7,987 nt of DNA, from contig JBKPCR010000087.1 of NCBI GenBank assembly GCA_046727435.1, forward strand, positions 1 through 7,987, given 5' to 3'. Position numbers and translations under genes: made by a program. Positions 1 through 7,987 of the stretch are shown one piece after another (within the stretch, counting starts at the first letter, position 1; each line of letters starts with the position of its first letter). The DNA is from CAVPRW01 sp046727435 [NCBI: bacterium]. Lineage in GTDB: Bacteria; Tectomicrobia; Entotheonellia; J063. Below the pieces are notes generated by a model, which worked only from the letters and a program-made list of their open reading frames with translations, made no database searches and was not told where the DNA came from.

Positions 1-633
1 GCCCACGCCGCCGCCTTCCCTGAGCGTGGGATTAACGCCGCGGATGCCTTGACGATCGCCCAGGTGGCTCTTGGACTGCTGCGCCAGCACATTCGTGCCA
101 CCGATCGGATCCATGGCATTATTACCAAGGGAGGAGACGCCCCCAACATCATCCCGGCCCACACGGCCGCCAAGTACGCCGTACGCGCCCAGACGGTTGA
201 CGACCTGGAGGCGATCCGCACGAAGGTGCTGCGGTGCTTCGAGGCTGGGGCAGTCGCGACTGGCGCCACCTTGGACATTGGTGGGCAGCGTCACCCCTAT
301 GCCCAGTTGCGCCACGATCCTGACATCGCGGCGGCGTATCGTCGCAATGCTGAGGCCCTTGGGCGCGTCTTCCCAGATCCCACGGCACCATCACGTCCCG
401 GTGGCTCGACCGATATGGGCAACGTGTCGCTCGCTCTGCCGTCCATCCATCCCATGATCGGCATAGACTCTCTGCCAGCCACGAACCACCAGCCCGAGTT
501 TGCCGCTCACTGCGTCACCCCCGCGGCAGACCAGGCGCTCGTGCATGGCGCCCTGGCCATGGCCTGGACTGCCGTCGATTTGGCCAAGACGGCCGCGATC
601 CGCCATCGCCTGCTTGGTGTCACGTCCGCATGA
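1..633 (+). CDS. M20-family amidohydrolase/peptidase, C-terminal part (5' end outside window)
   Basis: The frame is open from base 1 and stops with TGA at 631-633, so 210 C-terminal residues are visible and the real start lies upstream. The visible part has the dimerisation ('lid') domain: an HAA..P..GINA.DA stretch at residues 2-16, then HGIITKGG.APNIIP followed by a beta-strand. The C-terminal catalytic segment has a GGSTDMGNVS motif near residues 134-143 and an NHQPEF motif, whose His (about residue 163) fits the last metal ligand of M20 enzymes. The STDMGNVS..LPSIHP pattern is that of the ACY1L2/PM20D2-like and aminobenzoyl-glutamate hydrolase-like branch, metal-dependent hydrolases of amide or dipeptide bonds. 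The N-terminal metal ligands are not in the window, so activity and exact substrate cannot be judged. The gene converges on the DUF2845-like gene. M20 assignment is confident; the subfamily is less so. Confidence 0.9.
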   Translation, partial: AHAAAFPERGINAADALTIAQVALGLLRQHIRATDRIHGIITKGGDAPNIIPAHTAAKYAVRAQTVDDLEAIRTKVLRCFEAGAVATGATLDIGGQRHPYAQLRHDPDIAAAYRRNAEALGRVFPDPTAPSRPGGSTDMGNVSLALPSIHPMIGIDSLPATNHQPEFAAHCVTPAADQALVHGALAMAWTAVDLAKTAAIRHRLLGVTSA

Positions 634-730
634 GTCGAGATGTGTGGTGGGGCCGCTCGCCACGTGGAAACGCTCATGACCATGCATCTGTGAGCGGTCC
701 CAATGCCCTCCCGATCTCCAACGCCTATAT

Positions 731-779
731 GCCGCTGGCGCTCCCAGCGGCACTCCCGAGGGGTGGAATGTTGCCCCTC
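731..779. repeat. Two tandem hairpins in the convergent intergenic region
   Basis: GCCGCTGG (731-738) and CCAGCGGC (744-751) form a perfect 8-bp stem with a 5-nt loop. GAGGGG (758-763) and CCCCTC (774-779) form a 6-bp stem with a 10-nt loop. They sit in the 262-bp gap between two genes that end towards each other (633 on plus, 896 on minus). The position suggests a bidirectional transcription barrier, but neither stem is followed by a T-run, so they are not classic intrinsic terminators. I see no convincing gene in the gap. Confidence 0.4.
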
Positions 780-895
780 ATGACCACGTCGCTTTCGGTC
801 GGCCGATACGAATGGAAGAAGACGGGCGTTGGAAATTGGTGTGCCAGGTGAAACATGCCCGTGGCGGCCAGAGCCCCCCATCTTTGCTACACAGT

Positions 896-1237
896 TTATC
901 CTCCATAGTCACCTGTTTTGATGTCGATCAATTTTCCCTCCTGAAAGGTCAGATAATACAGCAAGCGTGTCGACCCAAAATTGTAGGTCCAGATGCTCTG
1001 CTGCACCGGCACGAGGATATATACAGGGGTCTGGCTTGTGGAGTCAAAGGCGCGTTGCGGGATGTATTTCATCACGTCCTCAATAGCGGCTGGCTCTCCA
1101 CACCGCTCTCTTACCTCCCAGGGGCTCGCGCCGATCACGATCAGCCGGCCATGGCAGTCTTGCGCCAACGTACTTCCGACGGTCCCGCCCAGGACCATGA
1201 CCGACGACACGATTGCCACCACTACGATTCGCCTCAT
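896..1237 (-). CDS. Secreted DUF2845-like small protein
   Basis: The 113-residue protein begins with a typical Sec signal peptide: an MRR n-region, a hydrophobic core at residues 4-20 and a TLA|Q cleavage site after residue 25. The mature part matches the DUF2845 pattern known from Gram-negative bacteria: a short Cys-containing strand (C28) leading into LIVIGASPWEVRERCGEP (C46), then W-Y-NFG (residues 83-88), and a C-terminal L-F..GKL..I..G..G. The two cysteines could form a disulfide in the periplasm. The function of the family is unknown. The ATG at 1237 is supported by a GGGAG ribosome-binding site at 1252-1248, 10 nt upstream. It lies 39 bp downstream of a 58-residue ORF on the same strand, so the two may be co-transcribed. 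Family recognition is from motif memory, not a search. Confidence 0.8.
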   Translation of the reverse strand: MRRIVVVAIVSSVMVLGGTVGSTLAQDCHGRLIVIGASPWEVRERCGEPAAIEDVMKYIPQRAFDSTSQTPVYILVPVQQSIWTYNFGSTRLLYYLTFQEGKLIDIKTGDYGG

Positions 1238-1276
1238 CGTCTGCGATCTCCCATCGCCAAGCCGCGATGCACCATG

Positions 1277-1453
1277 TTATCCGCGCCGGATCGCTTGTTG
1301 CCGCTGCCGAGCGGATTGAACCTGTGGAGCAACCTCTTGGACTCGTTGGCAATCCTCGTCGGCCGAGCGCCAGAAGAGAAGGCCTGCGGGGACCTCGCGA
1401 ACCGTCACCGGGGTGCCGAGCTCTGTGGCTAGACGGAGGACGCGGTTTTGCAT
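1277..1453 (-). CDS. Small hypothetical protein, 58 aa
   Basis: An ATG at 1453-1451 opens a frame that closes with TAA at 1279-1277. The product starts MQNRVLRLATELGTPVTVRE, continues through VPAGLLFWRSADED, and ends in a Gln/Arg-rich basic helix (QSARQRQQAIRRG). It has a plausible fold pattern: amphipathic helix, beta-strand, a G-LLFW strand, an acidic turn, then a basic helix. Codon third positions are GC-rich in the first half, as in real genes here. A weak purine-rich site (GAAGGG) lies 9 nt before the ATG. There is no signal peptide or membrane segment. It sits directly upstream of the DUF2845-like gene on the same strand, so they may form a two-gene unit. I do not recognise the family; the basic tail would allow nucleic-acid or ribosome contact, which is inference. 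Overlapping frames on both strands look non-coding by comparison. Confidence 0.55.
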   Translation of the reverse strand: MQNRVLRLATELGTPVTVREVPAGLLFWRSADEDCQRVQEVAPQVQSARQRQQAIRRG

Positions 1454-1659
1454 CGTCTTGTGCCCTTCGGGGGGTCATGCCTGCGGCAGTGTTGTCCAGA
1501 GATTGGGTTTTTCCCTTTAAGGCACTATAGCGCCGAGTTCATACGGGGCGCATGACAAGAGGAAGAGAGCCCCTTACCTATCGGTCCGGTGCCTGGTTCG
1601 CTCACGCCGGCGCCGGGCCATCCTTCTCCGGCCTCGCGTGCAACCCCCAGCGGACTTCC

Positions 1660-3021
1660 CTAGTGGGGTCTCTTATATGCCTCTACGCGACTCCGCAACG
1701 GCTCCTCCCGCAGGGCCGAGAGCGGCTTGGCCAGATTGAACACTTCGGTCACCAGCCGCTGGACCTCGAGGTCTTCGGCGGTGAGGGCATCCACGTCGGC
1801 GAAATACTGCGCCTGTTCTTCCAGGTCAGCCGGCCGTTCCCCGCGCGTCCCCGGATACGCAAAGTCCCGCATGGCCGCCAGGGTCCATGGCCTCTCAACG
1901 ATCGCCGCCGCCTTCGGGAAAAAGTCGCCTGCCAGGCCGTCAAGTCCCTGCGCCGCAATCGCTCGCTCCGACAAGACCTGCTGCAACGCCTGGACCTGCA
2001 GCGCGGCCGCGCTCATTCCCTGGCCATAGAATGGATTGACGCTGCTAATGGCATCCCCCAAGACCAGCAAACCTTCGGGAACGGTCGTCAGCCGTTCGTA
2101 ATGATGCCGTAGACTGGTGGGAAACCGATAGGCGGTGATGTCCGCCACCCGCTCCGCATCCTTAATGAGGTTGTACAGCTTGGGAGTATGCAAGGCCTTG
2201 GCAAAGGCCATGAAGCCCGCGGCGTCGTGCGGGGGATAGTTCCCGAAGCGGCCCATTAATGTCACGTGCCAGGTGCGCTCCTCGATGATCTCCACAATGG
2301 CCCCATCGGGAAAATCCGGCGGTGGGCCAATAAACACCAACAGCCGCTCCGGCTTGTCGTAGGTCTCCGGCACACGGAACTTGGTGCTGGCATAGGCGAT
2401 ATCAACCCCGATCGTCGTCACCTCTGGGGCTTGGGAACCGAGCGCCGTGAGCCAACGAGGCGTCTGCGATCGCCGTCCGCCGGCGTCGACCACCAAATCA
2501 GCGGCAAGGCAATGGGTTTCGCCAGCCTGGGTGTAGTGCACGCCGCGGACGCGCCCGTCGGCGTATACCAGCCCGCGCACGATGCTCTCCCCTGCAAACA
2601 TGATGTTGGCCTGCTGCAGGGTGCAGTGGCGCACGCAGCATTCGAGGAGCTCACGACTGTGACAGGTGATATCAAACCCCAGATCGCGTGGCTCTTGCAC
2701 CGTGCCCGTCATCGAAAACGCCTTGCCCGTCGGGAGATAGAACACGACGCCCGTGCCGGCTCGACAGCGCTCAGCGCCCAGGGTTTCTAACTTCTTGATG
2801 AAACCAGGATACAGCGATGCCATGACCTGCTGTCCGCCCAACAACAACCCATGGAGATGGGAGCCCTGTGGGATCGATTGATGCAGCGTGGGCCGATCAT
2901 CGACGTGGTCCCGTTCGAGGACGGTGACGGCGTCCAGGTGATCGGCGAGCACCCGCGCCGCCATCAGTCCCGCCATGCTCCCGCCGATGACGACCGCCTG
3001 CTGACCGACGTGATGCGCCAT
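1660..3021 (-). CDS. FAD-dependent oxidoreductase / epoxidase-like monooxygenase
   Basis: This 453-residue protein has the three marks of the PHBH-type flavoprotein fold. The Rossmann motif VVIGGSMAGLMAARVL at residues 10-25 is followed by the ribose-binding acid in VLERD (E36). A DG-type motif, DLVVDAGGR, lies at 175-183. The FAD-closing GD motif is in LLVLGDAISSVNPFYGQGMS at 318-337. The SxNPxYGQGM form is typical of the FAD epoxidase/geranylgeranyl-reductase-like group, which oxidises or reduces lipid, terpenoid or polyketide-like substrates; the substrate here is unknown. No signal peptide or membrane segment is seen. The frame could extend upstream to 3081, but I chose the ATG at 3021 because a strong GGAGG at 3033-3029 precedes it by 7 nt and the Rossmann fold begins just after it. 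It lies 306 bp downstream of the phospho-histidine protein on the same strand and may belong to the same pathway or carry its own promoter. Confidence 0.88.
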   Translation of the reverse strand: MAHHVGQQAVVIGGSMAGLMAARVLADHLDAVTVLERDHVDDRPTLHQSIPQGSHLHGLLLGGQQVMASLYPGFIKKLETLGAERCRAGTGVVFYLPTGKAFSMTGTVQEPRDLGFDITCHSRELLECCVRHCTLQQANIMFAGESIVRGLVYADGRVRGVHYTQAGETHCLAADLVVDAGGRRSQTPRWLTALGSQAPEVTTIGVDIAYASTKFRVPETYDKPERLLVFIGPPPDFPDGAIVEIIEERTWHVTLMGRFGNYPPHDAAGFMAFAKALHTPKLYNLIKDAERVADITAYRFPTSLRHHYERLTTVPEGLLVLGDAISSVNPFYGQGMSAAALQVQALQQVLSERAIAAQGLDGLAGDFFPKAAAIVERPWTLAAMRDFAYPGTRGERPADLEEQAQYFADVDALTAEDLEVQRLVTEVFNLAKPLSALREEPLRSRVEAYKRPH

Positions 3022-3028
3022 ACTTGCC

Positions 3029-3033
3029 CCTCC
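3029..3033 (-). promoter_or_regulatory. Ribosome-binding site fixing the flavoprotein start
   Basis: On the minus strand GGAGG (in TTGGAGGGGCAAGTATG) stands 7 nt before the ATG at 3021. The upstream in-frame ATG at 3081 adds 20 residues unlike a flavoprotein N-terminus, so 3021 is preferred. Confidence 0.75.
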
Positions 3034-3082
3034 AATGATCGTTTCCACGGCCATCATGCACGGACCCGGCCGTGACACCACG

Positions 3083-3190
3083 TCACCCCCAGGCCTGAGC
3101 CATCGCGGTCACGCATTGGCTCGCATAAGGGACGTAGCCGTGCTGGTCTACTGCCACTGCATAATACCGCGCCACTGCCAAGGCGGGCAA
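3083..3190 (-). CDS. Possible 35-aa leader ORF or gene remnant
   Basis: Within the 306-bp spacer before the flavoprotein gene, a minus-strand frame starts at TTG (3190-3188) and ends at TGA (3085-3083). GGAGG at 3201-3197 lies 6 nt before the TTG, which is good spacing. The product includes ARYYAVAVDQHGYVPYASQ and looks protein-like. In another frame just upstream, an ATG at 3242 begins a hydrophobic signal-peptide-like stretch (MLALLLCTVILVCL). This raises the alternative that both pieces are remains of one small secreted protein gene broken by a frameshift. A third reading is that this is not coding and instead holds the promoter noted at 3161-3190. I do not recognise the sequence. Confidence is low. 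Confidence 0.25.
   Translation of the reverse strand: MPALAVARYYAVAVDQHGYVPYASQCVTAMAQAWG
3161..3190 (-). promoter_or_regulatory. Candidate sigma-70-type promoter for the flavoprotein gene
   Basis: On the minus strand TTGCCC (3190-3185, 4 of 6 to the -35 consensus) is followed after 18 nt by TATTAT (3166-3161, 5 of 6 to the -10 consensus). It would give a leader of about 130 nt before the ATG at 3021, allowing the flavoprotein gene to be expressed apart from the dikinase genes. It overlaps the possible 35-aa ORF, so at most one of these readings may be right. Such matches occur by chance. Confidence 0.3.
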
Positions 3191-3327
3191 CAGGTGCCTC
3201 CAGGCATACCAAGATCACCGTGCAAAGCAGTAAAGCAAGCATGAAACCCAGCGGCGCCTTTCACAACACTGAGGGTTCTACGAAAGATGAGTGCCCTGCG
3301 GATGTGGCGTCGTGCTTCATGTTGCCC

Positions 3328-4968
3328 TTAGATTCGTGCGTCAATACGCACAACCCCTCGGGAGCCATCAACCGTCAACAGCATGCCGTCCTTGAGAACG
3401 GATGTCCCCACAACCGTCCCAACCACACACGGGATGCGGTACTCTCGAGACACAATGGCGCAGTGGCTGAGGACGCCACCGGTATCAGAAACCACAGCGC
3501 TGGCGGTGGAGAAGAGAGGCGTCCAGGCGGGCATCGTCATCTCGCAGACGAGAATATCTCCGGATTGGACTTTACTGGCCTCGGACAGGTTGTGGACGAC
3601 CGTCGCTCGACCATGAACAGTGCCGGGTGAGGCGCCAGTGCCAGTGATGACGTCGGGGTCCCGGCTCGGCTCTACTGGAACGCCAAGCATCTTCCGCAGA
3701 ATCGCCTCCTCCCAGGGGTCGTCGCTGGGTGGCGGTGGTTCGCCTATGGTTGGCGGCGGAATGATCTGCGACCACGCTGCCATTTCTGCCTTCCGTTCGG
3801 CTGCCAAGGCCTGCTGGTTCGCTCCTGATAAGCCGGCGCGAATCTCAACCAGGTAGAGCAGGAACACGTCGTTCTGGTCGGCTAAAGCACCCCGGCGTAC
3901 CAGGCGACGGCCAAGCTCCAGGAGGGGAAGCCGCAGGACAGAATCCCCCATCTGGTCGATGTAGAAATTATGGTCCTCGGTCAGGACCAGATTGTGGCGG
4001 GCCATCTCGTACAGCTCGTTGAAGCGGGCCAGCTTCTCTGGGTCTCCCGCCAACCGCTGCCGTGTCTGGGCCAGCAGCCGTTCGCGGGCTCGGATCGCTT
4101 CCTGGAAGCGAACGTCAGGGTCGGCCTCCGCACCGAGAGAGATATAGCCCTGGAGGGTGTTCAGCGGGATGCGAGGGTTTTCCCGCCAGGTTGGGTCAGC
4201 CAGCTCGAAGGCATCACTACGCCAGCCAAACTCGTCCAGGTAAGCTCGAAACTCCCCCAGGAAATGGCGCCCCTCCTCCAACTGTTCCAGGTGCGAGACC
4301 AGTCCGGCGGGGTCCTGGGCCTCGAACATCTTCTTCAGTGCGGGGGTCGCTTTGATCATCCGGCTGAGCCTCCACAAGCCGCGACCTGCGGCCAGCGAGC
4401 GTGTGGGAAAGCCCTGAAGCAAGAGATATGGCTCGGTGCGGTCTTCGGGCTCGAACGTGTCGTTGTAGAAGTCGGCGAACCAGCTGGCAGAGATGGTCAC
4501 GAAGTTAATCCAGCCATGGATGGTCCAGCGTTCGAGAAAATCCCGCCGCATCTCGTCCAAGGTGTGCAGCAGCTCGTCGTCGCCCAACGTCGTGAAGTCT
4601 GTGGTGCGGGCCTTCTCGAGGCCGGGAAGAATGGTTGGCAGCCATGTCCGTTCCCACAGTTCGCCCATGCGAGGCAATACCTGCCTCAGTTGCTCTTGAT
4701 AGCGGGCGACCCGCTCCTGCATCGTTTCAGCGCCCAGGTCGAAGGGTTTGATGGTAAAGAAGCCATAATAGTTAATGGCGCGACACTGTGCACCAAAAGG
4801 ACAAGCCCATCTTCCCATGGCTACAGAGAAGCCTTCGCTAAGGGTGCTATACAAGAGCTCCTGAGTCAATGGCGTGGCGGGACGGGGAAAGTGTCCCTTT
4901 TCCCATGCCCAGAAGCCTTCAACCTCCGGTGGGATCGGGAAATTCGGTGTGAGCGGAGCGGCGGTCAT
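3328..4968 (-). CDS. PEP-utilising/dikinase-family phospho-histidine protein (helical acceptor region + His swivelling domain)
   Basis: The 546-residue protein ends in a PEP-utiliser mobile domain, residues about 440-546. It has a GTGASPG..HGRA entry strand (442-454) and the phosphorylated-His motif GGVLSHCAIVSREYRIPCVVG at 497-517, with H502 the expected phosphate carrier. The preceding roughly 430 residues are helical and rich in Trp, Arg and acidic residues; YLDEFGWRSDAFELADPTW at 243-261 resembles the acceptor-binding region of rifampin-phosphotransferase-like enzymes. A proline-rich linker (404-414) joins the two parts. Both the N-terminal ATP-grasp and the C-terminal pyruvate-binding TIM barrel of PEP synthase are absent. 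The ATP-grasp is encoded by the gene just upstream. Inferred role: accept a phosphoryl group on H502 from the partner and pass it to a small molecule, as in phenylphosphate synthase or rifampin phosphotransferase. I chose ATG 4968 over 5034 because AAAGGAG lies 10 nt upstream. Substrate unknown. Confidence 0.88.
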   Translation of the reverse strand: MTAAPLTPNFPIPPEVEGFWAWEKGHFPRPATPLTQELLYSTLSEGFSVAMGRWACPFGAQCRAINYYGFFTIKPFDLGAETMQERVARYQEQLRQVLPRMGELWERTWLPTILPGLEKARTTDFTTLGDDELLHTLDEMRRDFLERWTIHGWINFVTISASWFADFYNDTFEPEDRTEPYLLLQGFPTRSLAAGRGLWRLSRMIKATPALKKMFEAQDPAGLVSHLEQLEEGRHFLGEFRAYLDEFGWRSDAFELADPTWRENPRIPLNTLQGYISLGAEADPDVRFQEAIRARERLLAQTRQRLAGDPEKLARFNELYEMARHNLVLTEDHNFYIDQMGDSVLRLPLLELGRRLVRRGALADQNDVFLLYLVEIRAGLSGANQQALAAERKAEMAAWSQIIPPPTIGEPPPPSDDPWEEAILRKMLGVPVEPSRDPDVITGTGASPGTVHGRATVVHNLSEASKVQSGDILVCEMTMPAWTPLFSTASAVVSDTGGVLSHCAIVSREYRIPCVVGTVVGTSVLKDGMLLTVDGSRGVVRIDARI

Positions 4969-4978
4969 CGTGTGACAG

Positions 4979-4985
4979 CTCCTTT
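4979..4985 (-). promoter_or_regulatory. Ribosome-binding site fixing the phospho-histidine protein start
   Basis: AAAGGAG on the minus strand (4985-4979) precedes the ATG at 4968 by 10 nt. The in-frame ATG at 5034 would add 22 residues with no domain character and lacks a comparable site. The 105-bp gap to the upstream gene and this separate site argue that the two dikinase parts are separately translated proteins, not one gene broken by a sequencing error. Confidence 0.7.
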
Positions 4986-5073
4986 CTGTACGATCATAGC
5001 TTGATGTGACGGCAACGCATGGTCCAGCCTGCATGTAATGAGCAAGTGCCCATGACCAACACCGCTGTGAGGA

Positions 5074-5961
5074 TCACAAGGCAGTCAGCGTAGTAATGGG
5101 CCGACATTGGAGTAGGTACAAGTCTCGCCCTCGGTAGGCACACTCGATATCCACGGGCCAGCCCATGGCCGTCTCCAGGGCTATGCTGAGACGAGCCAAC
5201 TCCATCACTTGGCCGTCGTCTATGCTGGGAGTCTTCCGGTGCCTGCAAGGAACAGGTACCTGGTGTGTGCCTTGCTGAGCGAGGACGGTCATGCGGCGCT
5301 TTTCAGCGATGTCACGGATTCCAATGGCCAGGTCCGATTTGCGTACAGTATAGGTATCAGGAGTCACGGTGCCGCTGACGAGACTCTCTCCCAAGCCCCA
5401 GCTGGCGTTGATCATCACCTCCTCGTCGCTACCGGTCACAGGGTTGGCGCTGAACACCACCGCTGACACGTCTGCCGGAACAAGCTGCTGCACCAGCACG
5501 GCGAGGCCGGCTCCTGCAACGGATAAGCCTTGCTGCTGGCGGTACACCAGGGCCCGCTCCGTTCGAACCGAGCCCCAACACCGGACAACAGCCTCTGCCA
5601 CGGCGTGTGCTCCGGTGATGTTCAGGTAGGTCTCGTGCTGGCCGGCGAAGGAGAGGGTAGCACCATCCTCATCCACAGCAGAGGACCTCACCGCGACCCC
5701 GGGATCGGCAATGCCGCATGTTTCGCCCAAGTCTCGGTAAGCAGACGCCAATGCATCGGCAAGAGCGAGCAGTATGGATGGGGTGAGTGAAGCTGGCCGA
5801 GTACTGTCGATAAGCTCTGCCCACTGTGAATATGCCTGAGCGGAGATGCAGAATCCTGGTGGGATACGATAGCGGGATGCCAAGCGGCTGAGGTGCGCTG
5901 CCTTTGCGCCGGCCCTATTGACGTCGTGGCAGTCTGCATGACCAAGCCAGAGAACCTCCAT
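5074..5961 (-). CDS. Stand-alone ATP-grasp subunit, PEP synthase/PPDK N-terminal family
   Basis: The 295-residue protein is a complete PPDK_N-type ATP-grasp domain and nothing more. Visible family motifs in order: GAKAAHLSRL with K20; IPPGFCIS (33-40); VRSSAVDEDGA..SFAGQ (91-108) with R92; VVFSANPVTG (168-177); WGLGESLVSGTVTPD (188-202); DIECA (271-275) with E273; and the closing QCRPIT (285-290) with R287. These are the positions that bind ATP and metal in this family, and all are present. The domain splits ATP to AMP and Pi while loading a phosphoryl group on the His of a mobile domain; here that His is on the separate downstream protein. The ATG at 5961 is chosen over 6045 because a full AGGAGGTGA lies at 5977-5969 and a sigma-54-type promoter lies between the two candidate starts. 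The natural end at QCRPIT.. with its own stop suggests a true subunit and not a truncation. Confidence 0.9.
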   Translation of the reverse strand: MEVLWLGHADCHDVNRAGAKAAHLSRLASRYRIPPGFCISAQAYSQWAELIDSTRPASLTPSILLALADALASAYRDLGETCGIADPGVAVRSSAVDEDGATLSFAGQHETYLNITGAHAVAEAVVRCWGSVRTERALVYRQQQGLSVAGAGLAVLVQQLVPADVSAVVFSANPVTGSDEEVMINASWGLGESLVSGTVTPDTYTVRKSDLAIGIRDIAEKRRMTVLAQQGTHQVPVPCRHRKTPSIDDGQVMELARLSIALETAMGWPVDIECAYRGRDLYLLQCRPITTLTAL

Positions 5962-5968
5962 AGCACAT

Positions 5969-5977
5969 TCACCTCCT
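5969..5977 (-). promoter_or_regulatory. Full-length ribosome-binding site of the ATP-grasp gene
   Basis: AGGAGGTGA on the minus strand is a complete match to the anti-Shine-Dalgarno complement. It is followed by 7 nt and then ATG 5961. It is the strongest such site seen in the window and decides the start. Confidence 0.8.
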
Positions 5978-6029
5978 CCCCTCTGCAGCCTTCGTGGTAC
6001 CGGAAGATATCGATTGCCAGCGTCCCAGG

Positions 6030-6044
6030 GCAAGGGCCGTGCCA
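6030..6044 (-). promoter_or_regulatory. Sigma-54 (-24/-12) promoter for the dikinase genes
   Basis: The minus strand reads TGGCACG-GCCC-TTGC, matching the RpoN consensus TGGCACG-N4-TTGC at all fixed positions, with exactly 10 nt between the invariant GG (-24) and GC (-12). Only the last, variable W is C. Transcription would start near 6018 and give a leader of about 57 nt before ATG 5961, which carries a full Shine-Dalgarno. Sigma-54 promoters need an enhancer-binding activator bound upstream. This implies the dikinase genes are switched on by a specific signal, perhaps the substrate. Confidence 0.65.
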
Positions 6045-6111
6045 ACTCTACCAGAGGCCGTCAAGTGGCGGTGGTGGGGGAAATTTTGCGATTAGAGGTA
6101 TCGAAGTTATC

Positions 6112-6152
6112 GGCAGTGGCTGTGCAGGATTGGCCGGCAGAAGGGCAGTGGC
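6112..6152 (+). repeat. Direct repeat GGCAGTGGC x2 upstream of the sigma-54 promoter
   Basis: GGCAGTGGC occurs at 6112-6120 and again at 6144-6152, 32 bp apart or about three helical turns. This is roughly 100-130 bp upstream of the inferred transcription start, a usual distance for activator sites. The core GCAGTGGC also occurs twice (minus strand, 3178-3171 and 3160-3153) before the flavoprotein gene, but at least twice more inside coding sequence, so it may just be a common word. Confidence 0.25.
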
Positions 6153-6360
6153 CGATCGGGAAGTCCCTAGAAGGGTGAGCTGTCAATCACTCCGGGCGCT
6201 GCGCAGTGCTGACCATGGTGGCCATCTTTAGACAGCAGAAAAACCAAACATGTGGCGAGATGCATCCGCCCTCCGACGGTTTACGTAAGTCATCCTGGAC
6301 CACCATGCCCTACTGTCTGCGATGAAGCATGCGACGTGATGGCCACTTGATACCAGTCCT

Positions 6361-6374
6361 GCTGCTGGAGCAGC
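6361..6374. repeat. Inverted repeat, operator-like (site 1)
   Basis: GCTGCT-gg-AGCAGC is a perfect 6-bp inverted repeat with a 2-bp spacer in the divergent spacer. Its centre is 30 bp, about three turns, from the next inverted repeat, whose arms begin with the similar GCTGTT. Paired, phased dyads suit a dimeric regulator or sigma-54 activator. No binding protein can be named. Confidence 0.35.
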
Positions 6375-6387
6375 AAATTGTTGCCAG

Positions 6388-6407
6388 GCTGTTGGATAGA
6401 CAACAGC
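6388..6407. repeat. Inverted repeat, operator-like (site 2)
   Basis: GCTGTTG-gataga-CAACAGC is a perfect 7-bp inverted repeat with a 6-bp spacer. It lies about 380 bp upstream of the inferred dikinase start and about 500 bp before the binding-protein ATG. No T-run follows, so a regulator site is more likely than a terminator. Confidence 0.4.
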
Positions 6408-6613
6408 GTGGGTGAACAGCCTGCATCCGGCTATCTGACGCCCGACAGCGCTATACGCCATTTTATTTAAATATAACAATGACGTATGAAACTTTTAATG
6501 ACATCGTTGGTTGATGGCATCGAATATGCTGGTTGCTCCCGCAGCCTGCTACATCAGACCGCACAAGATTTGTATACATGATCAGCAGTAGTACATCCCC
6601 CGGCACTTCATGC

Positions 6614-6648
6614 TTCCCCCTTTGACAAAGAGGGGCAGGGGAGGAATT
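6614..6648. repeat. Dispersed intergenic repeat-like hairpin (CCCCCTTTG...CAAAGAGGGG)
   Basis: CCCCCTTTG followed at once by ACAAAGAGGGG and CAGGGGAGGAATT forms an imperfect dyad. Read on the minus strand it is the AATTCCTCCCCTGCCCCTC-TTTG-type sequence. Similar C/T-rich then G/A-rich dyads recur between genes in many environmental bacterial genomes. Only one copy is present here, so its repeat status is from general knowledge and not shown by this window. Confidence 0.45.
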
Positions 6649-6913
6649 GGTCAGCGACGTCACACGCTGGTGTACCAATGTGGTGTGGTTTGATCGAGCA
6701 TTCGGCATGACGTGGACGATCCCCGATACTCCGACGCGAGCCCCGACCTCTCCATCGCCAAGAATACGGTAGGGCTGACGTGGCAGTCGTGAATCGAGCC
6801 CTAGATCTAGCTCATTACATGCGTGTGAACACCGAAGCAGAACTGGAAATAGGGGGCATGACGCCATCGGCAGATGTCGGGACCTGTCACGCACGCAGAC
6901 ATAAGGGAGGAGT

Positions 6914-7987
6914 ATGCTTCACCACCGCAGACTTCAAGCTAGAGGACTGATGGGCATCGTGTTGTTCTTGATCCTCTTAGGGGCCATGGTCGCTGCTGTG
7001 TGCACGCAGCGGCCACAACTCGGGTTCATACCCATCTCTCCTGCCTTGGCAGCAATAGCAAGCCAAGGAGCCTTCCCTCAGGCTGGGGTGGATGGCGTCC
7101 CGGCAGCGGTCGAGCAGTTGACCGTCGCCTTCGACGGTTGGGGGGGAGATGTCATCGACCCCTGGCAATACATCGGTACCGGAATGCTACAAAGCTACTT
7201 GAATTTACGGCTCCTGCATCGGGATGAGCAGATGCAGGTGGTACCGCTGTGGGCCACCGAATGGCGGCAGGCCAATGAAGGGATCTACTTCACCCTCAAT
7301 CCGAAGGCCAAATGGCAGGATGGTACGCCGGCCACCGCAGAAGACTTCAAGGCTAATGTCGAAGCCTTGCTGGGAAAGTACGCTCCCGACTTCAAAGGCA
7401 CGCCCAGAATCGGGCAATTCAAGCGGGTGGTCCAGGAGGTGCAGATCATCGATCCGCTCCATGTGTTGATCAAGACCGAGATGCCCGACCCGAGCTTCTT
7501 CTCGCTCGTCAGTGGTGCCAATTATCATCAGGTCTGGTTTGGACCTAGCGCATACCTCAAGAAGGTGGGCCATGAGGGATACATCAAAAAGCCCGTCGGG
7601 GGCGGGCCCTATCAGCTCAAAACCTTCAAGCCTGGTGAGCGCATCGTCTGGGAGCGCTGGGAGGATTTCTGGGGCGATTATGCGTATTGGCAGAAACCCC
7701 AGCATCGTCTGATGGAATGGCTCCAGGTGCCCGATGATGCGGCGCGCTTCGCTCTGCTACGGGGCAAACAGGTGGATATGGTGGTCAATATCCCGTATGC
7801 CATCGCCAAGGACCTGCCCCGCTCGGAGTCGAACAAGCGTGGCGTCAATCCCCACAAGGGGCCCATCTGGACCCAGACCCATCTGGCGAACGGCAAGATG
7901 CAGATCACCTTCGACGCCGAGTTCATCATCCAAGAAAAGTTGGCGGGCTGGGAGGCCTTGCAAGATGACCCCACGCTCAAGCCGAAA
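6914..7987 (+). CDS. ABC transporter substrate-binding protein, family 5 (peptide/opine/nickel type), 3' end outside window
   Basis: The frame runs from ATG 6914 to the window end, 358 residues without a stop. Family-5 binding proteins are usually over 500 residues, so roughly a third is missing. The N-terminus has a basic region (HHRRLQAR, 3-10) and a hydrophobic segment at 11-29, as in an export signal. C30 is preceded by V29, so AAVC is not a standard lipobox; cleavage after ALA near residue 46 or an uncleaved anchor are alternatives. Family motifs are clear: FTLNPKAKWQDGTPATAEDF (126-145), the usual W.DG.P.TA.DF signature, and GGGPYQLKTFKPGER (229-243) with VWERWEDFWG (245-254). Such proteins capture peptides, opines, sugars or metal chelates for an ABC importer; ligand unknown. 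GGGAGG at 6905-6910 lies only 3 nt before ATG 6914. ATG 6950 is possible but would remove the basic n-region. The importer genes would be expected to the right. Confidence 0.88.
   Translation, partial: MLHHRRLQARGLMGIVLFLILLGAMVAAVCTQRPQLGFIPISPALAAIASQGAFPQAGVDGVPAAVEQLTVAFDGWGGDVIDPWQYIGTGMLQSYLNLRLLHRDEQMQVVPLWATEWRQANEGIYFTLNPKAKWQDGTPATAEDFKANVEALLGKYAPDFKGTPRIGQFKRVVQEVQIIDPLHVLIKTEMPDPSFFSLVSGANYHQVWFGPSAYLKKVGHEGYIKKPVGGGPYQLKTFKPGERIVWERWEDFWGDYAYWQKPQHRLMEWLQVPDDAARFALLRGKQVDMVVNIPYAIAKDLPRSESNKRGVNPHKGPIWTQTHLANGKMQITFDAEFIIQEKLAGWEALQDDPTLKPK

Follow-up and report, generated by a model that had tools for sequence, protein, structure and literature searches.

The stretch analysed here, called the window, comprises positions 1 to 7,987 (7,987 nucleotides) of contig JBKPCR010000087.1 from CAVPRW01 sp046727435, a bacterium of the Tectomicrobia. 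It carries on its minus strand two neighbouring genes, A (protein P0001, 5961-5074) and H (P0002, 4968-3328), which probably encode the two parts of a two-component small-molecule dikinase. The product of A is a free-standing PPDK_N-type ATP-grasp protein of 295 residues, and that of H, with 546 residues, joins a helical acceptor domain to a C-terminal His swivel domain. An original prediction made from this DNA had proposed a two-component enzyme in which a small acceptor other than pyruvate receives the beta-phosphate of ATP. The analysis supports this as the best reading. Neither of the findings named as counting against it was made: the six rows of the window's ATP-grasp clade include no fused protein, and no phosphoenolpyruvate (PEP)/pyruvate TIM barrel was found in the window. 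The split arrangement itself is already known from HpeHI, CreHI, PpsAB and PasAB.

Domain content and fold of the two proteins

The only Pfam match in the 31.6 kDa product of gene A was PF01326 (PPDK_N, 251 bits), and K20, R92, E273 and R287 are all present, in agreement with the earlier description of A as a complete ATP-grasp and nothing else; T111, which that description did not list, is in place as well. In rifampin phosphotransferase (RPH) Lys22, Arg117 and Thr136 are ATP-site residues implicated in the first phosphate transfer (PMC4844700). Sequence alignment placed R92 and T111 of A opposite Arg117 and Thr136, and K20 would, by its position, be the counterpart of Lys22. The gene is preceded by a ribosome-binding-like site, GAGGAGGTGA (5969..5978, minus strand). 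A free-standing ATP-grasp protein with its ATP-site residues is one feature by which two-component small-molecule dikinases are recognised; the other, found in H, is a second protein with an RPH-type acceptor domain and a C-terminal His swivel.

In H the PEP-utilisers mobile (swivel) domain, PF00391, was matched at residues 468-538 with 80.7 bits, behind a long helical region, and a ribosome-binding-like site of its own, AGAAAGGAG, lies at 4979..4987 of the minus strand. The predicted phosphohistidine, His502 (codon 3463..3465, minus strand), is invariant in a 19-row alignment and in 63 of 63 sequences, and its surroundings, SDTGGVLSH, fit the T/SxxGGxxxH motif reported for the catalytic His of two-component dikinases (PMC12167813). 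An AlphaFold2 model of H was built from a seven-row alignment (mean predicted local distance difference test score, pLDDT, 73.3; predicted template modelling score 0.74). When it was searched against the PDB, six RPH entries made up all the matches with E <= 0.001, and residues 1-544 aligned to RPH residues 308-867 with a Z score of 19.9 and a root-mean-square deviation of 5.2 Å over 464 residues. The helical region and swivel foreseen for H were recovered, in the order that the original prediction had cited from the single chain of RPH. Since the model spans RPH 308-867, H is, as modelled, RPH without its ATP-grasp, and A would be the missing piece.

PEP synthase and pyruvate phosphate dikinase (PPDK) share the ATP-grasp and swivel domains with the pair, and A taken alone scored best on PEP synthase models and on PEP synthase structure 8a8e (190 bits with its ATP-grasp, as against 150 bits with RPH), as might be expected had the two genes been the remnant of a disused PEP synthase. 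However, no PEP/pyruvate TIM barrel was found in the window with the C-terminal part of one PEP synthase as query (best E 0.42), whereas that query matched the barrel of a control locus with an E of 3e-56. The earlier claim that neither gene encodes the barrel is thereby borne out, and a PEP synthase or PPDK identity was rejected. With an RPH-type helical domain in H, the ATP-site residues and the catalytic His kept, and A and H distances that match (see below), a remnant is extremely improbable. PEP synthase was not in the structural-alignment list for H, which carries no weight either way.

In the mechanism that we propose for the two-component dikinase, A would bind ATP, the swivel domain of H would dock on A in a transient complex, and His502 would take the beta-phosphate, converting ATP to AMP and Pi. 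The swivel would then return to the helical domain of H, where the phosphate would pass to the hydroxyl, or perhaps amino, group of a small acceptor, with Glu331 and His333 filling the role of Arg666-Glu667 in RPH. This design has biochemical proof in HpeHI, the hydroxyphenylethanone dikinase of Rhodococcus rhodochrous GD02. HpeI is described as the ATP-grasp and HpeH as the acceptor and swivel protein, neither of which suffices by itself, AMP was reported as the main nucleotide product, a His variant as inactive and the two proteins as forming no stable complex (PMC12167813); the requirement for both is also stated in PMC9618137.

The acceptor site and known systems

Arg666 and Glu667 of RPH are reported to be critical for the second transfer, and replacement of either by Ala abolished rifampin inactivation (PMC4844700). 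In a sequence alignment Thr330, Glu331 and Asn334 of H lie opposite Arg666, Glu667 and Lys670, the Glu being kept and the Arg and Lys absent, and three residues past the Arg666 position stands His333, which all rows of the 19-row alignment, that of the window among them, have in common. The codons of Glu331, Asp332 and His333 occupy 3970..3978 of the minus strand. This His is found in PpsA and the CreH-like protein too, a Glu-Asn/Asp-His motif being common to H and the PpsA-type proteins, and the Glu-x-His pattern, a trait of phenolic kinases by our own observation and by no published criterion, points towards an acceptor chemistry resembling theirs.

The two positions were counted over 63 distinct sequences, those gapped there and identical ones having been dropped, with close relatives counting repeatedly. 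None lacked both Arg330 and His333. All 11 fused sequences have Arg330, to which two add His333, while the 52 free H sequences divide into 41 with His333 only, nine with Arg330 only and two with both. In a check of 27 free H, all 27 have His502 and either Glu or Asp at 331; a strict rule for Glu331 is contradicted by the Thermomicrobium-a type, which has Pro there (6/63). His333 may therefore be read, with due reserve, as a stand-in for Arg666, acting as phosphate clamp or base.

These residues also bear on the possibility that the pair is a split, RPH-like, antibiotic-inactivating kinase acting on a rifamycin or a similar natural product. Such an enzyme would account for the RPH fold of H and for the EmrB-type efflux pumps that adjoin its relatives, and joining window H to the RPH group was not rejected in an approximately unbiased (AU) test (p 0.089, H only). 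RPH, however, is a single chain where the window has two open frames divided by a TGA, its Arg666, without which rifampin was not inactivated, and its Lys670 have no equivalent in H, and the RPH group stood separate at 100/99 support in a 19-row tree of H. Because the AU test does not reject joining, it is branch support by itself that keeps H out of that group. Taken together, an enzyme of this kind seems unlikely, as are rifamycins as the acceptor, with another antibiotic left open.

A further reading is that of a ligase, in which the phosphate would activate one molecule for joining to a second. Matching domains occur in PigC and RedH, prodigiosin ligases that work in this way. The NCBIfam PigC model scored 206 bits on A and 145 on H, next to 215 and 136 bits for the RPH model. 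Yet all these scores are far below the curated cut-offs, the PigC and RedH models describe single chains of about 880 positions, and the six proteins of the window that were scanned include none recognised as part of such a pathway, making a ligase quite unlikely. The best NCBIfam match of H was PRK08296 ('hypothetical protein'), at 196 bits far below its cut-off of 578 bits; this group, which models about 570-630 positions, scored on H and was not among the matches of A.

The subfamily of two-component small-molecule dikinases was described as recently as 2025, in an account that names CreHI and PpsAB as homologues of HpeHI and as published two-component dikinases (PMC12167813); PasAB of Desulfatiglans anilini is reported to phosphorylate aniline (PMC7500099), and MarK is described as a single-component kinase (PMC13101465). 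The window pair resembles HpeHI in consisting of an ATP-grasp protein alone and an RPH-type acceptor and swivel protein with the His and without the TIM barrel. It differs in the size of A (31.6 kDa, against 40.6 kDa for HpeI), in that the scan of six window proteins revealed neither a carboxylase nor a phosphatase, and in lying outside the PpsA/CreH-like branch related to HpeHI, which was itself not in the trees. With PpsAB, represented by the Azoarcus plasmid copy L049 next to annotated ppc genes, the pair shares the Glu-Asn/Asp-His motif and the separation into ATP-grasp and His proteins that the original prediction had cited for phenylphosphate synthase. In contrast, H is 26.9% identical to its counterpart, joint grouping was rejected, the order in L049 is H then A, and the CBS-domain and ppc genes alongside were not recognised in the window. 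CreHI (the 4-cresol kinase of Corynebacterium glutamicum) and PasAB are described as having the same two-component design and as acting on small aromatics, PasAB being proof that the phosphate can go to nitrogen. In the sequence comparison CreHI was represented by L050 of Rhodococcus oxybenzonivorans, beside a cytochrome P450 gene, under a label of our own. No aromatic-catabolism genes, bar one flavoprotein of unclear use, were recognised among the six proteins scanned from the window, whose two ends are truncated. Our guess would be a phenol-like or xenobiotic acceptor.

Separate genes and their relatives

We think that A and H are two proteins, because the clade of window A is unfused, relatives occur in both gene orders and in mixed register, and the nearest relatives of H have no adjacent A. 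In a 42-row ATP-grasp tree, window A fell in a clade of six rows, itself included, with 100/98 support, and none of the six is fused; fused close homologues had been named beforehand as the finding that would speak against the original prediction. The contrary possibility is a single fused RPH-type chain broken by one TGA through mutation, sequencing error or recoding. Translation of the gap in three frames showed, beyond what the original prediction had noted, the TGA stop of A (5074..5076, minus strand) to be in the same frame as the ATG of H, 35 codons away with no further stop between, and two of the four A-then-H relatives checked (G071 and G259) are likewise in register. Chance alone, however, gives one in-register pair in three, the other two relatives (G215 and G033) are out of register, as is G047 going by its coordinates, and the H-before-A order of other relatives is incompatible with an A-H chain. 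Moreover, H of G001 and of G167 lacks an adjacent A, and in the window an ATG and a ribosome-binding-like site belong to H itself. We consider a broken or read-through gene very unlikely. The earlier argument from separate ribosome-binding sites and natural protein ends stands in its first part, both genes having such a site, but its second part is weaker than claimed because a single in-frame TGA separates A and H; it is the gene arrangement of the relatives that makes this case.

Separate pairs are found well beyond the window. There were 284 plasmid records matching H, and the five that were opened all hold separate A and H genes, from Thermomicrobium (A and H about 3 kb apart), Azoarcus (with the ppc genes), Rhodococcus, Deinococcus and Natribaculum; a second Thermomicrobium pair was also found on plasmid DNA. 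The other plasmid matches opened for A comprised fused proteins, whose annotation was rifamycin phosphotransferase or PEP/pyruvate-binding protein, one unannotated fused protein and one PEP synthase. Among 20 Chloroflexota stretches around matches of H, a separate A was seen in 12, a fused one in 1 and none in 7, at least four of these seven having a contig end near H. The separate Chloroflexota pairs occur in both gene orders, with A and H about 2.5-3 kb apart in G180 and G132, and with A cut by the contig start in G033. Seven relatives of H obtained from a genome collection, by a scan for exact short patterns, were all Chloroflexi/Chloroflexota records.

A 36-row tree placed window H with G001 (64% identity), G167 and G151 at 100/100, and PpsA, the CreH-like protein, Natribaculum and Thermomicrobium b in another clade, also at 100/100. 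On the 19-row trees, AU tests rejected a place for the window in the phenolic-kinase branch with both subunits (H p 0.0004; A p 2e-7), and membership of the phenylphosphate synthases was rejected with it. Distances between A proteins follow those between H proteins: for 15 separate pairs r was 0.68, with none of 20,000 permutations as high, and for the nine pairs on the window side 0.72 (2/20,000), the rows having been hand-picked from the fetched sequences, with related rows not independent. On this evidence the window pair is, as judged from sequence, a new member of the known kind of split dikinases, outside the phenolic-kinase branch and grouping with Chloroflexota pairs. A literature search at listing level, with subscription journals mostly outside it, returned nothing on this branch and no shared ATP-grasp subunit.

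Several points weigh against a split dikinase made up of these two proteins. The in-frame TGA is such that one base change or readthrough event would fuse A and H. The swivel part of the H model is poor, residues 477-513 and 517-523 falling below a pLDDT of 50. When all 19 pairs are taken, four fused ones included, r for the A and H distances is only 0.37 (43/20,000), and H is only distantly similar to Azoarcus PpsA, at the identity given above. The three nearest relatives of H (G001, G167 and G151, the last with short contigs) have no A beside it, so the pairing of A and H is not fixed; in G151 and G167 the solo A lies near the PpsB group, outside the clade of window A.

Some further features of these relatives were noted. 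In L001, part of the swivel-domain sequence of the 64% relative of H is repeated over a short distance behind that gene (6927-7078). Small swivel-only frames, either fragments or free swivel domains, are present in G001, G033 and G151 (L162 8208-8588, L146 1-468, L175 6672-7328). A flavin-reductase-like protein is encoded divergently beside H on the minus strand of L003 (7092-7793), L004 (7197-7856) and L005 (7213-7878), recognised by PF01613 in the first two and by similarity in L005. On plasmid pCP1 of Deinococcus radiodurans, a split pair with a short ATP-grasp (L051, 727-2803) lies a few genes away from an annotated Qat anti-phage system.

Gene neighbourhoods and the excess of H

A major facilitator superfamily (MFS) transporter was the immediate neighbour at 12 of 34 loci with free H or solo A, from 19 genomes. 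The expectation from the numbers of MFS genes counted in these genomes is 0.68 (P 1e-12), the counts of the larger genomes being lower bounds (63 candidates scored), and 2.0 if MFS genes are taken as three times commoner (P 3e-7); the hypothesis came from the same data, the loci were scored by hand, and contig-end pieces, swivel-only fragments and fused genes were omitted. The order is A-H-MFS in G215, G259, G033 and G047, H-A-MFS in G283 and G297, MFS-H-A in G023 and H-MFS-A in G002, while G001 and G167 have H-MFS without A; in G005 the MFS is spread across three frames, and one of the 12 cases is a solo A adjoining an MFS (G001). When eight of these transporters were scanned, seven scored best on the EmrB-type DHA2 drug-efflux model, one of them passing its cut-off, and the eighth was of the MFS_3 type. 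No MFS was recognised in the window, within its two cut ends. The efflux-type pumps of the relatives point towards a toxic or foreign compound as the acceptor.

Free H genes outnumbered free A genes in at least nine of 39 genomes searched for the two genes, counts being made by hand from open-frame lengths. The ratios of H to A were 3:1 in G001, 2:1 in G002, G005 and G207, at least 6:1 in G006, at least 2:1 in G151, 4:2 in G132 and G188 and 3:2 in G180, where the third H is in two frames. Free H with no free A was seen in G003, G004 and G224. Many of these genomes are draft assemblies in which missing A genes may be gaps, the stronger cases being G132, G188 and G180, whose contigs reach 0.8-2 million bases. 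No H is present in the fetched flanks of the solo A in G001, G005, G006 and G167, that of G005 lying near a contig end. In favour of fixed pairs, fourteen of the 39 genomes have a single free H close to a single free A; the remaining 13 were unclassed, among them G167 with one H and one A, unlinked.

Since free H exceeds free A in several genomes, a single ATP-grasp may supply phosphate to several acceptor subunits. A shared donor would be consistent with the transient contact of HpeH and HpeI, whereas the matching distances of linked A and H proteins suggest partners that stay together. We can propose only tentatively, and regard as rather doubtful, that these genes form an undescribed branch of split dikinases serving modular detoxification or scavenging, with an interchangeable ATP-grasp, several acceptor-specific H proteins, some of them with a DHA2-type exporter, and a His replacing the catalytic Arg.

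On the minus strand, beyond the 3' end of H (1660-3021), the window encodes P0003, an oxidoreductase of 453 residues dependent on flavin adenine dinucleotide. Relatives of P0003 were found in 18 of 301 Chloroflexota genomes (E <= 1e-30, best identity 41%), none of which holds the window-clade genes that were found, and the flavoprotein was rejected as a conserved partner. A DUF2845 protein is encoded at 896-1237 (minus strand); its family was found in none of the 301 genomes, with the control likewise empty. The plus strand carries the C-terminal part of an M20-type amidohydrolase at 1-633, cut by the window start, and at 6914-7987 a gene for a family-5 extracellular solute-binding protein (SBP_bac_5), of which the window, ending within it, holds the first part. 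This gene diverges from A, and in the roughly 950 bases between the two no gene was recognised. At the gathering threshold, Rfam gave no match in the window. A scan of 3050-7000 gave three promoter-like sites, against 1.4 in shuffles (standard deviation 1.2), and three terminator-like sites, against 2.3 (standard deviation 1.5), and was not informative.

The two-component dikinases that we found in print act on a few aromatic substrates, and the pair in the window anchors a separate branch of such enzymes, tied in its relatives to efflux-type pumps. The alternation of Arg and His offers a way of testing how the acceptor site functions in split and in fused forms, and the excess of H makes the sharing of one ATP-grasp across substrates a testable idea.

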